Assembly (NCBI GenBank): GCA_001563305.1
Contig: CP013703.1
Span: 124,001 to 188,000, forward strand
Reading direction: 5' to 3'
From: a methanogenic archaeon mixed culture ISO4-G1
GTDB taxonomy: Archaea > Thermoplasmatota > Thermoplasmata > Methanomassiliicoccales > Methanomethylophilaceae
DNA: 64,000 nt
The stretch's first letter is position 1, and every line of letters starts with the position of its first letter. The notes below the pieces were generated by a model. It searched no databases. It was not told where the DNA came from and worked only from the letters and a program-made list of their open reading frames with translations. Shown piece after piece: positions 2,813-38,831 of this stretch. Made by a program: the position numbers and the translations under genes.

Positions 2813-4051
2813 TCACATGTCGAGCGTGAACTCCTGGCCGGTGGTCGGGAGTATCACGTTGTAGTCTCCTTCGAGGTCTGGGAGGAACGCCTCGCGGGAC
2901 TCGGAGTGCATGATGATGACGTTGTCAGGGTCGCACTTCCTGATGAAGTCGACGATCTGACCGTGGTCGGCGTGCGCGGAGAAGTCGTACTTCTTGAGCT
3001 CGCATGAGATCTTGACGATCTCGCCGTCGATCTTCACGCAGCCCTCTTCCAGCAGCATCCTTCCGTTGGTGTCCTCCGCCTGGTATCCTACCAGGAGGAT
3101 GGCGCTCTTCTCATCGTCCTTGATGGCGTTGAGGTATCCGAGGACGGGGCCTCCGTCGAGCATTCCGCCGGTGGTGACGATGATCTCGCCCTTGATGGCG
3201 GACGCCCTGGAGTTGGCGTTCCTGACCTCGTTGAACTTCCTCTTGGCCGCCTTGAGGTGCTTGACATCCCTGATGTACTCCGGGTAATCGAGGAACAGGC
3301 GTGTCACGGACCTTCCCATACCGTCGACCCACATCTCGTATCCGAGGTTCCTGAGCAGGAGCATGATCTCCTGCGTCCTTCCCACGGCGAAGCAGGGGAT
3401 GAGGACCTTTCCGCCGCGGTCGAGGACCTCCTCGATCTTGGCGATGAACGCCTCCTCCGTCTCCTTCCTGTCAGGGTGGTAGCGCCCTCCGTAGGTGCCC
3501 TCGATGAAGAGGTTGGTACAGTCGGCGGGCTTGGCGCCTCCGACGAGCCTCTGGGCCTCCGTGTGGATGTCTCCGGAGTAGATTGTGGAGACGTCCTTCT
3601 CGAACTGGAACATCGCTGCTCCGGGGATGTGGCCGGCGTCGAGCATCGTCACGTCGAAGTGGTTGATGCTGATCTGGTCCTCGTAGGTCATGGGCACTAC
3701 TGCCTTCATGGTCCTCTCGATGTCCCCGGACGTGTAGGGCTGTGGGTAGTCCTCCGCCTTCGCGATCTTCAGCGTGTCGTACATCATGAGCTCCGCTATC
3801 TCGGCGGAGAGCGGTGTGGTGAACAGGTCGCATTCGTTCTTCCCGCATATCTGCGGGATCATTCCGCAGTGATCCAGGTGCGAGTGCGTCAGGAAAGCAT
3901 AGTCTACACGTGGCGCAGGGAGAGGGTACTCTGGCGGTTTGGTAGGGCTCAGACCGTACTCGATGAGCGCGGTCATGCCGTCCCCTTCCAGGGTCATCCC
4001 CATGCGTCCGACCATGTCGGCACCGCCCAGGAATTTGCATTTCATTTCCAT
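2813..4051 (-). CDS. Beta-CASP metallo-beta-lactamase ribonuclease (aCPSF2-like)
   Basis: This 412-residue RNA-processing nuclease belongs to the metallo-beta-lactamase/beta-CASP group. The zinc motif H-S-H-L-D-H is at residues 56-61. Further metal-site signatures include G-H-I-P-G-A, Y-S-G-D-I-H and, near the C-terminus, S-A-H-A-D-H and the H-S-E-S-R motif. The protein lacks the N-terminal KH domains of aCPSF1/FttA, so it fits the shorter aCPSF2 class, whose members have exo- and/or endonuclease activity on RNA. The start is supported by AAGGAGC eight bases upstream. Two hairpins carrying Shine-Dalgarno-like and anti-Shine-Dalgarno sequences lie in the leader. RNase J or another aCPSF paralogue remains possible. 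Confidence 0.85.
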   Translation of the reverse strand: MEMKCKFLGGADMVGRMGMTLEGDGMTALIEYGLSPTKPPEYPLPAPRVDYAFLTHSHLDHCGMIPQICGKNECDLFTTPLSAEIAELMMYDTLKIAKAEDYPQPYTSGDIERTMKAVVPMTYEDQISINHFDVTMLDAGHIPGAAMFQFEKDVSTIYSGDIHTEAQRLVGGAKPADCTNLFIEGTYGGRYHPDRKETEEAFIAKIEEVLDRGGKVLIPCFAVGRTQEIMLLLRNLGYEMWVDGMGRSVTRLFLDYPEYIRDVKHLKAAKRKFNEVRNANSRASAIKGEIIVTTGGMLDGGPVLGYLNAIKDDEKSAILLVGYQAEDTNGRMLLEEGCVKIDGEIVKISCELKKYDFSAHADHGQIVDFIRKCDPDNVIIMHSESREAFLPDLEGDYNVILPTTGQEFTLDM

Positions 4052-37051: not shown

Positions 37052-37510
37052 TCATTTCTTCCTGTAGGATTTCATCGGGGAACCGCAGATCGGGCATTCG
37101 GATGCCTTCTCCTTGAACCATTTGCCGCATCCTATGCACCTGTAGTTCCACTTGACCACCTTCTCGATGCCCTTCATGCCCACGGGCTTGAAGCCGATGC
37201 CCATGATCCTCGCGACATTCTGTATGGAGTAGTCGTCGGACCATATGGTGCCGTTGACATCGATAGCAAGTGCCAGCACGGTCATGTCCACCGGAGAGAG
37301 CCTGCCCAGGTCGCCGCTCTTCTTGGCGGCCTCCTCGACCTTCGCCAGTGATTCCTTGGAGCAGTCCGAGACACGGATCATGCTCTCCCAGAGGGACAGG
37401 CGGGGATCCTCGTATTTCTCCAGCTCCCTGATGACACCGGAGGGGCATATGTGGTCCTCCTCAGGGAGGGAGTCCATTGAGAAGAAGGCGGAACTGTCGA
37501 GCACGATCAT
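37052..37510 (-). CDS. nob1: Nob1-like endonuclease (PIN domain plus zinc ribbon)
   Basis: This 152-residue protein has an N-terminal PIN domain, with acidic residues in V-L-D-S-S-A-F-F near residue 5 and L-S-P-V-D-M-T-V-L-A-L-A, and W-S-D-D-Y-S near 96. A C-terminal zinc ribbon follows (C-I-G-C ... C-P-I-C). Archaeal Nob1 cuts the 3' end of 16S rRNA precursor. ATG at 37510 is preferred: the upstream extension is Ser-rich and non-conserved, and it overlaps the preceding duplicated fragment. It meets the GGR gene tail to tail. Confidence 0.9.
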   Translation of the reverse strand: MIVLDSSAFFSMDSLPEEDHICPSGVIRELEKYEDPRLSLWESMIRVSDCSKESLAKVEEAAKKSGDLGRLSPVDMTVLALAIDVNGTIWSDDYSIQNVARIMGIGFKPVGMKGIEKVVKWNYRCIGCGKWFKEKASECPICGSPMKSYRKK

Positions 37511-37514
37511 CCTA

Positions 37515-37709
37515 TCACTCGGCGCCTCTGATGATTCCGATGACGATCTCACGTTTCTCTTCGGAGAGATCAAAATCTTCCAGGGCCTGTTCGAGGGAGA
37601 TGTTCTTCTTCGTCATGTACTTCTGAATAACCTCTGCCTGGCCCCTCTCGTACGCTTCCCTTTCCCGCTCTTCGATTTCAGCCTGGACCCATTCATCGTA
37701 ACTGAGCAT
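37515..37709 (-). pseudogene. Tandem copy of the nuclease-gene tail (64 codons)
   Basis: The 64 codons start M-L-S-Y-D-E-W-V and end with I-I-R-G-A-E. They copy the last 64 codons and stop of the Rpn-type gene just upstream; both copies are exactly 195 bases long. Identity is high at both ends (positions 37524-37555 and 37668-37709 against 37768-37799 and 37912-37953) and lower in the middle. A weak GGTGA site precedes the ATG, so a small protein could be made, but it lacks the catalytic domain. It is most simply a decaying or newly shortened duplication product. Confidence 0.75.
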
Positions 37710-37953
37710 TCTTCACCCTTCTGTTCGTATTATCAGCGGATTTGAGATTGTGAACTGATTACTCTGAGCCTCTGATGATTCCGATGACGATCTCACGTTC
37801 CTCTTCGGAGAGACCGTGATCTTCCAGGGCCTGTTCGAGGGAGACGTTCATCTTGGCCATATAACCACGAATCATTTCTGCTATCGTTTCACAACGTGTT
37901 TCCTTTTTTTGCTCTTCGATTTCAGCCTGGACCCATTCATCGTAACTGAGCAT
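37515..37953. repeat. 195-bp tandem direct duplication, 49-bp spacer
   Basis: Unit 1 is 37515-37709 and unit 2 is 37759-37953. Both encode M-L-S-Y-D-E-W-V through I-I-R-G-(A/S)-E plus a stop, with no length difference. The ends are almost identical and the centre diverged. Confidence 0.8.
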
Positions 37954-38703
37954 CTGCCTTATGTCCTCCAAACTCTGGTTTAATCCATCGTTGTACGGGA
38001 TATTATAGAGTTGTTCTATCTCGTCAGTCTTCTCCCTGTCGCTAAGGCGGTTGTCGAAGAAGACCTCCAGCATCCTCTTCGTCTTCGCAATCGGATCGTC
38101 CGAGGCGGGCGAGGGGTCCTTCTCGGCATTCCCGAGACCTATCATGACGATCTCCAGGAAGTCGCAGTCGTTCAGCGGCGATCTCCCTTCGAAACCGCCG
38201 AGATACCTTCCCTGCATGGAATAGGATGCGATGGTGTCCTTGCGGTCGCTCTGTGGCCTGAGTATGCACCATATGGAGTAGACCTTCCTCAGGCTGCCAT
38301 AGTCCATGTTCCGGAAGCCCCTGCCCTTCTGCTGGGCTATAAGCGAGGAGCCGTAGTACATCGCCCTTGCGCCCAGATCCTTATGGTCAAGGGTCTGGCC
38401 TTCGAGATTGACGATAACCCCGACCCTTTCACTCCCGTTCGGCAGCCTGACCTCGAAAACGGAGTCCATGACTATCCTCCCGCCGTTCTCCGAATCGTAC
38501 TCGTTGCTGTTCCCCTTCACCCTGTCGGTGCCCTCATCCACATCCAGGCATCCTATGATCTCCTCGATGTCGGAATCCCTGAACTCCCTAACGCATCCTT
38601 TCAGCACCGCGGACAGGATGTACTTGTTGCTCACGAATCTCTTGAAGGCGGCATCCATGTACCTGTTCCTGTTGACGGTCCCGTAATCCAAAGATTGAGT
38701 CAT
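37759..38703 (-). CDS. Rpn/transposase_31-like PD-(D/E)XK nuclease family protein
   Basis: This 314-residue protein has a core that fits the Rpn (recombination-promoting nuclease, PDDEXK family transposase-like) group. D-A-A-F-K-R-F lies near the N-terminus, V-M-D-S-V-F-E-V near residue 80, and the V-N-L-E-G-Q strand carries the E-x-Q form of the active-site motif. A helical C-terminal third follows. Such proteins nick or cut DNA and spread within genomes, but no terminal repeats or target duplications are visible here. The last 64 codons are duplicated downstream. Confidence 0.8.
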   Translation of the reverse strand: MTQSLDYGTVNRNRYMDAAFKRFVSNKYILSAVLKGCVREFRDSDIEEIIGCLDVDEGTDRVKGNSNEYDSENGGRIVMDSVFEVRLPNGSERVGVIVNLEGQTLDHKDLGARAMYYGSSLIAQQKGRGFRNMDYGSLRKVYSIWCILRPQSDRKDTIASYSMQGRYLGGFEGRSPLNDCDFLEIVMIGLGNAEKDPSPASDDPIAKTKRMLEVFFDNRLSDREKTDEIEQLYNIPYNDGLNQSLEDIRQMLSYDEWVQAEIEEQKKETRCETIAEMIRGYMAKMNVSLEQALEDHGLSEEEREIVIGIIRGSE

Positions 38704-38831
38704 GGAGGTGCTGTCGCCTTGTACCTAATTTAAGCGAGCACTGCATGTAATATGCATCTCGGAAACCGACGGCGGAGGCGGAGACGAACAACAATAAATG
38801 ATGACCCCCATATACCGCCAAAGGTGCTCTG

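Follow-up and report, generated by a model that had tools for sequence, protein, structure and literature searches.

In Escherichia coli, rpn genes yield, besides the long toxic protein RpnL, a C-terminal tail, RpnS, which is made from an internal start and blocks RpnL (Zhong et al. 2023, PMC10327210). RpnS was found to inhibit its own RpnL in the case of RpnA and of RpnB, and RpnP2 and RpnC behaved similarly; tests of the gene-within-gene layout cover E. coli and C. difficile (PMC10327210). RpnS is sometimes also made from a separate downstream gene; the protein from ypaA was detected, and rpnC has a downstream copy in some E. coli strains (PMC10327210). The unit of tail variation described by Zhong et al. 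is a four-residue repeat, and one extra repeat abolished inhibition in E. coli (PMC10327210).

The window analysed here, a stretch of 64,000 nucleotides from the methanogenic archaeon mixed culture ISO4-G1, carries on its minus strand a long Rpn gene that contains an in-frame ATG behind a candidate ribosome site and, just downstream on the same strand, a small gene, which is the layout of E. coli rpnE and ypaA. In strain MG1655, the start codon of ypaA is the ATG that corresponds to codon 244 inside rpnE and lies 12 nt past the rpnE stop; ypaA and the internal rpnE start have the same ribosome site (-5.4 kcal/mol each), and in RefSeq rpnE is given as inactive and ypaA as a pseudogene. In the E. 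coli pair, ypaA is longer by four residues, inserted in the early part of the tail, whereas the window's tails are of equal length and differ by substitutions. The window locus is further set apart by its archaeal host, by the Nob1-like gene that comes next and by its intact frames.

With RpnA-L and RpnA-S (structure 7th0), the window pair shares the catalytic residue pattern and the probable internal start, and a three-helix tail with a long first helix, solved for RpnA-S, is predicted for the window tail. No separate downstream copy of the rpnA tail is described in the main text of Zhong et al. (PMC10327210), whereas the window has one. Activity has been shown for RpnA-L and RpnA-S, whereas for the window pair we infer it. 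Loose C-terminal cassettes are also known from contact-dependent inhibition (CDI) and Rhs loci, where orphan toxin-tail/immunity modules lie downstream and can recombine into the full gene; the loose piece in the window, unlike these, resembles an antitoxin tail and not a toxin domain, and no homology is claimed. A literature search, thin on subscription journals, showed among the papers listed none on archaeal rpnS copies, of which the supplements of Zhong et al. may list cases.

The nuclease gene and its two tail units

The initial annotation, made from the sequence alone, had taken the larger gene (37759..38703, minus strand; 314 aa) for an Rpn-type nuclease gene, and profile searches pointed the same way. 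TIGR01784 matched the protein with an E-value of 1.7e-5 over profile positions 45-269 of 273, at 24.8 bits and hence below the cut-off of 52.1 bits, and PF12784 gave a weak match (E 2.5e-4; 21.3 bits, cut-off 27.4). The PF12784 cut-off was passed by one of the four other archaeal nucleases scanned with Pfam, the paralogue L011, about 50% identical to the window nuclease (30.8 vs 27.4 bits). Alignment of the window nuclease with 26 relatives, 10 of these 27 members being matched by TIGR01784 at E 0.001, revealed D80, E101, Q103, R113 and W145 to be invariant and D17 to be conserved in at least 90%. The catalytic-type residues D17, D80, E101, Q103 and R113 follow RpnA D11, D63, E82, Q84 and R94 in the same order and at near-equal spacing. 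According to Kingston et al. (PMC5350276), the RpnA exchanges D11A, D63A, E82A and Q84K led to loss of all three phenotypes, and with Q84A and R94A recombination was no longer promoted and viability was still reduced; D165 was likewise mutated, and the residue comparison made here covers the other five positions. From the sequence, we conclude that the larger gene probably encodes an Rpn-type PD-(D/E)XK nuclease, a probable DNA-cutting enzyme. A Foldseek search with the nuclease yielded nothing at E 0.001 or better, the top match being McrBC with E 0.038. NCBIfam FliH matches of the nucleases were taken as helical-repeat look-alikes.

Two units of 195 bp, each of 64 codons and a stop and separated by a spacer of 49 bp, had been described at this site and were found again on the minus strand at 37515-37709, the stand-alone tail gene (64 aa), and at 37759-37953, the C-terminal tail of rpn. 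The open frame of the former has 70% amino acid identity to the rpn tail, and over their 195 bases the two units agree at 153. The near-identical ends and diverged middle noted before were recovered when the 42 differences were assigned to zones. Codons 1-14 of the stand-alone tail (37668..37709, identical to 37912-37953) hold none, codons 15-37 (37599..37667), most of which fall into predicted helix 1, hold 34, and codons 38-65 hold eight; if differences were spread evenly, zero in the first 42 bases would be expected with a probability of 9e-6. Homology between the units runs from ATG to stop. Outside, ungapped identity drops to 11/60 and 12/60, and gapped similarity upstream of the small ATG was no better than that of shuffled sequences, 1488 of 2000 of which reached its score. 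A search for a donor of the diverged middle was negative: within the own genome, the best match beyond the locus has 36% identity. A search of the genus with the 64-aa protein alone gave no match beyond the own genome (1 of 31 genomes), so that nuclease profiles were needed for finding relatives.

It had also been stated that the reading frame was kept through divergence. Both frames are indeed open; at the same time, 17% of 20,000 neutral simulations (41 substitutions, no indels) likewise stayed open. An open frame in the window alone was therefore weak evidence, and relatives were surveyed.

In a predicted monomer of the stand-alone tail (mean pLDDT 87.9), helices span residues 4-35, 39-45 and 50-63, the first being long. 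A profile of tails matched the RpnA tail structure 7th0 with E 1.1e-4 at rank four, behind two designed proteins and 2x48. Foldseek with the tail returned nothing with an E-value of 0.001 or below, and 7th0 was not among its matches, and VIA-align over the 31 chains from Foldseek did not have 7th0 in its list either. The two window tails are of equal length and without the 4-aa repeats; Pfam Yae1_N matches of repeat-rich tails elsewhere were taken as helical-repeat look-alikes.

Internal starts and loose tails in relatives

An in-frame ATG at 37951-37953, 64 codons before the end of rpn and absent from the initial annotation, is preceded by GGAGG (37965..37969, minus strand), a candidate internal Shine-Dalgarno sequence with a duplex energy of -8.1 kcal/mol. 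The possible ribosome site that had been proposed for the small unit corresponds to GGGTGA (37713..37718, minus strand), a candidate Shine-Dalgarno sequence, which ends 3 nt before the small ATG and pairs with -8.0 kcal/mol. All duplex energies were calculated with an assumed anti-Shine-Dalgarno sequence, not one taken from this genome.

In 67 archaeal rpn genes, a strong internal Shine-Dalgarno sequence with an in-frame ATG was found in the tail zone of 33, against 9 and 7 in control zones, and the strong sites peaked at 60-99 codons from the rpn end. Shine-Dalgarno pairing was stronger at the 213 in-frame ATGs lying 55-125 codons from the end than at the 348 in the rest of the gene (p = 9e-6) and than at 133 out-of-frame ATGs in the same zone (p = 5e-6); these p-values are optimistic, as related genes are not independent. 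The 67 genes were drawn from 86, leaving out near-identical genes, very long or odd frames and those whose profile match fell short of the C-terminal end. A first set of 31 genes, from which 11 of 42 archaeal loci had been excluded as truncated, very long or redundant, gave p = 4e-4 with ATG only, and in this set the signal was gone once GTG and TTG were joined to ATG (p = 0.13 and 0.23). The internal ATG, its ribosome site and the enrichment in the family together suggest that the last 64 codons of rpn (37759..37953), the RpnS-like tail, are probably also translated alone.

The initial annotation had proposed a search for stand-alone tails beside other Rpn genes, and this search proved productive. 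A frame-blind DNA search of the available flanks of 86 archaeal rpn frames (230 aa or longer), located in 85 of the 116 loci used, revealed 30 tail copies behind 25 of the frames, every copy being downstream and on the same strand. One distant opposite-strand match, at L223, coincided with another rpn gene in the search list. The frame is intact in 28 of the 30 copies, two of which (L214 and L240) were scored on stop-free tblastn matches alone; the broken ones are those of L212 and L221. L198 was excluded from the tail-bearing genes, its second piece resembling the remainder of a broken rpn. Redundant loci had been removed by hand before the survey, and no fully identical archaeal pair was among the pairs listed afterwards. 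In at least two of the 25 loci (L064 and L233), the nuclease was seen to be split over two frames, with the downstream loose tail open.

The own genome of the window holds a second rpn gene (L010) with two loose tails behind it that differ in their number of repeats, whereby a one-off odd duplication was rejected, and a third (L011) without a loose tail. An orphan, repeat-rich Rpn-like tail was observed in the same genome on contig C1 near 319.6 kb (L247, 2143-2535, minus strand) as a 130-aa frame, with a short nuclease remnant upstream by eye; it is perhaps a tail kept after loss of its nuclease.

Of 102 genomes of the family, 24 were matched by profile A5, built for the nuclease type of the window, and 13 by the stock profile TIGR01784; in a sample of 389 genomes across the phylum, profile A2 matched 10. 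PADLOC gave weak matches only, and the one viral-contig scan showed no relative. Among bacterial relatives in the first survey, 13 small tail-like frames were located near 67 rpn frames, eight of them downstream on the same strand and five upstream or on the opposite strand. The rpn subfamily of the window was seen to be common to many gut and rumen bacteria (L072 to L142), mostly Firmicutes, with loose tails at L072, L090/L093, L112, L114 and L139. This distribution suggests cross-domain transfer of the subfamily.

To its own neighbour, the window's loose tail scored 88.6 bits, vs 35.0 bits. The first survey covered 42 archaeal rpn frames and 15 loose tails, 13 of which had their own neighbour as best match when compared with 109 archaeal and bacterial rpn tails, the other two belonging to the loci of the L053/L055 exchange described below; with bacterial tails added, the own parent was the best match for 16 of 23. 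The tails had been chosen by likeness to the neighbour, hence it is the margin that counts, and gene conversion could also keep neighbours alike. Values of dN/dS between tail and parent were 0.13-0.64 in the 13 measurable of these 15 archaeal pairs, to which the calculation was restricted, and 0.47 for the window; they also reflect constraint on the parent gene. The comparison of dN/dS between copies that had been proposed was carried out across loci.

Tail and parent are of equal length in three of 26 intact pairs, the window's included, the broken tails of L212 and L221 being left out of the length counts. The net difference is a multiple of four residues in 13 of the 23 unequal pairs (p = 0.0012). 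As some net lengths are sums of gaps (at least those of L064 and L223), the gaps were recounted singly, after the fact, and 19 of 26 inner gaps were found to be divisible by 4 aa (p = 4e-7), or 19 of 36 when gaps at the ends are counted too (p = 3e-4).

Ribosome sites of the loose tails were mostly weak. At the first start codon, pairing of -6 kcal/mol or better was present in 10 of 26 tails and weaker in 16. Among the 348 ATGs in other parts of rpn genes, 62 reached this strength (p = 0.015 for the comparison); two of the 26 tails had no ATG in the part scanned.

The nob1 site and upstream elements

The gene following the stand-alone tail (37052..37507, minus strand) is Nob1-like, with a PIN domain (PF17146, E 3e-13) and a weak zinc-ribbon match (PF08772, E 0.01), and has a match in 31 of 31 genomes of the genus. 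The stop of the tail was observed to lie 7 nt before the Nob1-like start (37505-37517, minus strand). Thirty nob1 loci of the genus were compared, that of the window included. In 19 of the 29 others, carS adjoins nob1 with a gap of 80-162 bp in 17 and of 538 and 990 bp in two, and the rpn gene of the window had no match at these 19 loci; in the remaining 10, carS was not found within the stretch examined. The carS-nob1 gap in the window amounts to 1324 bp. Among the 30 loci compared, rpn and tail are present at this nob1 site only in the window genome. Since the insert replaces the usual upstream region of the Nob1-like gene, expression of this gene may now depend on the rpn unit.

Upstream of rpn, the element GCATATTNNNTGCAG (38741..38755, minus strand) is common to the genome's two other rpn genes. 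It occurs nine times in the genome, whereas the reversed control pattern occurs zero times. Sites were noted at the window rpn, at L010 (2446) and L011 (2547), and at L174, L176 and L177, whose genes appear by eye to encode short membrane-anchored or pilin-like proteins; a TATA-like box mostly comes after the element. Possibly, GCATATTNNNTGCAG marks a shared regulon.

Further sequence features were noted in passing. Within rpn, CTATAATATC at 37999-38008 (minus strand; codons Y-N-I) is perhaps an internal promoter. The flanks upstream of the two loose tails (B and C) at L053 resemble altered rpn coding sequence with TATA-like boxes, and CTATAATATC stands at the corresponding site of rpn. An element TCCGC(A/G)GGA was seen by eye shortly before the rpn starts of L010, L048, L049, L050 and L065, and an apparent 5S rRNA gene, again by eye, directly after the third rpn gene (L011, about 3670-3790).

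Tail exchange and the probable role of the stand-alone tail

One locus is represented in two congeneric species (genomes G004 and G005) by L053, with the order rpn-tail A, loose B, loose C, and by L055, with the order rpn-tail B, loose C. The rpn bodies are equal at 699 of 702 bases. The rpn tail of L055 matches loose B of L053 at 235 of 237 bases and rpn tail A of L053 at 179 of 249, and its flanks are those of rpn upstream (75/75) and of B downstream (120/120). A and B start with a common block of about 83 bases, one mismatch allowed. These data fit a crossover inside the shared 5' block by which loose tail B would have become the nuclease's own tail. As the upstream flank of B in L053 is only 57% like rpn, the loose state probably came first, L055 being the fusion. 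In 13 rpn protein pairs with bodies at least 94% identical, the tails are 61-72% identical in four (L053/L055, L216/L222, the L108 pair and L094/L096) and 77-100% identical in nine. The type of event is already known, since a fusion of an N-terminal domain with an rpnS region is mentioned for E. coli (Zhong et al., PMC10327210).

The small unit of the window would be an archaeal case of the already known RpnS kind. Judging from its sequence and that of its relatives, it is rather probably translated into an RpnS-type protein with an Rpn nuclease as its target, and the locus would then be a toxin-antitoxin unit of the Rpn type in an archaeon, supplemented by a separate gene of antitoxin type; our confidence was lowered by the weak ribosome sites of most loose tails. 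The regulatory small protein that the initial annotation had offered as one of two explanations is thereby favoured in part: the RpnS precedent and the sequence evidence speak for it, and the two broken copies, together with a clear Shine-Dalgarno sequence in only 10 of 26 loose tails, speak against it.

The long gene would make the Rpn DNA endonuclease RpnL, which would cut DNA, and RpnS from the internal ATG of rpn would keep RpnL in check. The small downstream gene, with its own ribosome site, would supply a second, diverged inhibitor. The tail protein would be small, helical and, by analogy with RpnA-S, dimeric, would pair with the same part of RpnL and would thereby block the nuclease; any virus-defence role is likewise one that we infer. 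With most of its changes in helix 1, the copy is likely to have an altered affinity or to block a different Rpn variant. That the lengths are equal and the ends nearly identical speaks for binding to the neighbouring RpnL. Conversely, the loss of inhibition by one extra repeat in E. coli favours altered specificity, so that the copy, having diverged, may leave its neighbour unaffected. The target could be the neighbouring RpnL or another Rpn protein, and we make no firm choice.

Another explanation, which we consider unlikely, takes the small unit chiefly for a recombination cassette, a donor tail for crossover in the shared 5' block whose protein is of little importance. Such a donor would account for the near-identity of the L055 rpn tail to loose B, for the four tail-diverged pairs, for the identical 42-bp 5' block of the window units and for the weaker pairing at 16 of 26 loose-tail starts. 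A silent donor, however, need not keep an open frame or a low dN/dS; moreover, the loose tail of the window has a good ribosome site, and the E. coli counterpart ypaA is translated (Zhong et al., PMC10327210).

Lower still do we place the decayed duplication that had been the other explanation of the initial annotation, according to which the unit is a functionless, decaying remnant of a partial tandem duplication. While the share of neutral simulations that keep the frame open and the two broken archaeal copies would agree with decay, it is disfavoured by the 28 intact copies of 30, by the best match of tails to their own neighbour at many loci and by dN/dS below 1 in all 13 measurable pairs of 15. 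It is very improbable that the small protein, instead of inhibiting the nuclease, assists it as a positive partner in the manner of Cas11d in a CRISPR complex: products of internal starts can serve as subunits, of which Zhong et al. (PMC10327210) cite an example, but the RpnS proteins tested in the same study inhibit (PMC10327210).

Going beyond the reading as an RpnS-type inhibitor, loose tails might form a bank of alternative antitoxin or specificity modules, an idea that we put forward tentatively and with more doubt than conviction. They would be joined to the nuclease by homologous recombination via the shared start block, swapping tail and antitoxin in one step, with loose copies preserving protection against former or rival versions; the window would hold one such tail, its helix 1 having diverged between ends that stayed nearly identical.

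The locus and its relatives extend the gene-within-gene Rpn toxin-antitoxin layout, at the level of sequence, to methanogenic archaea, where internal ATG starts are supported statistically and loose tails are many. The tail exchange between two species, resolved to the base, makes the diversification of Rpn tails directly testable.
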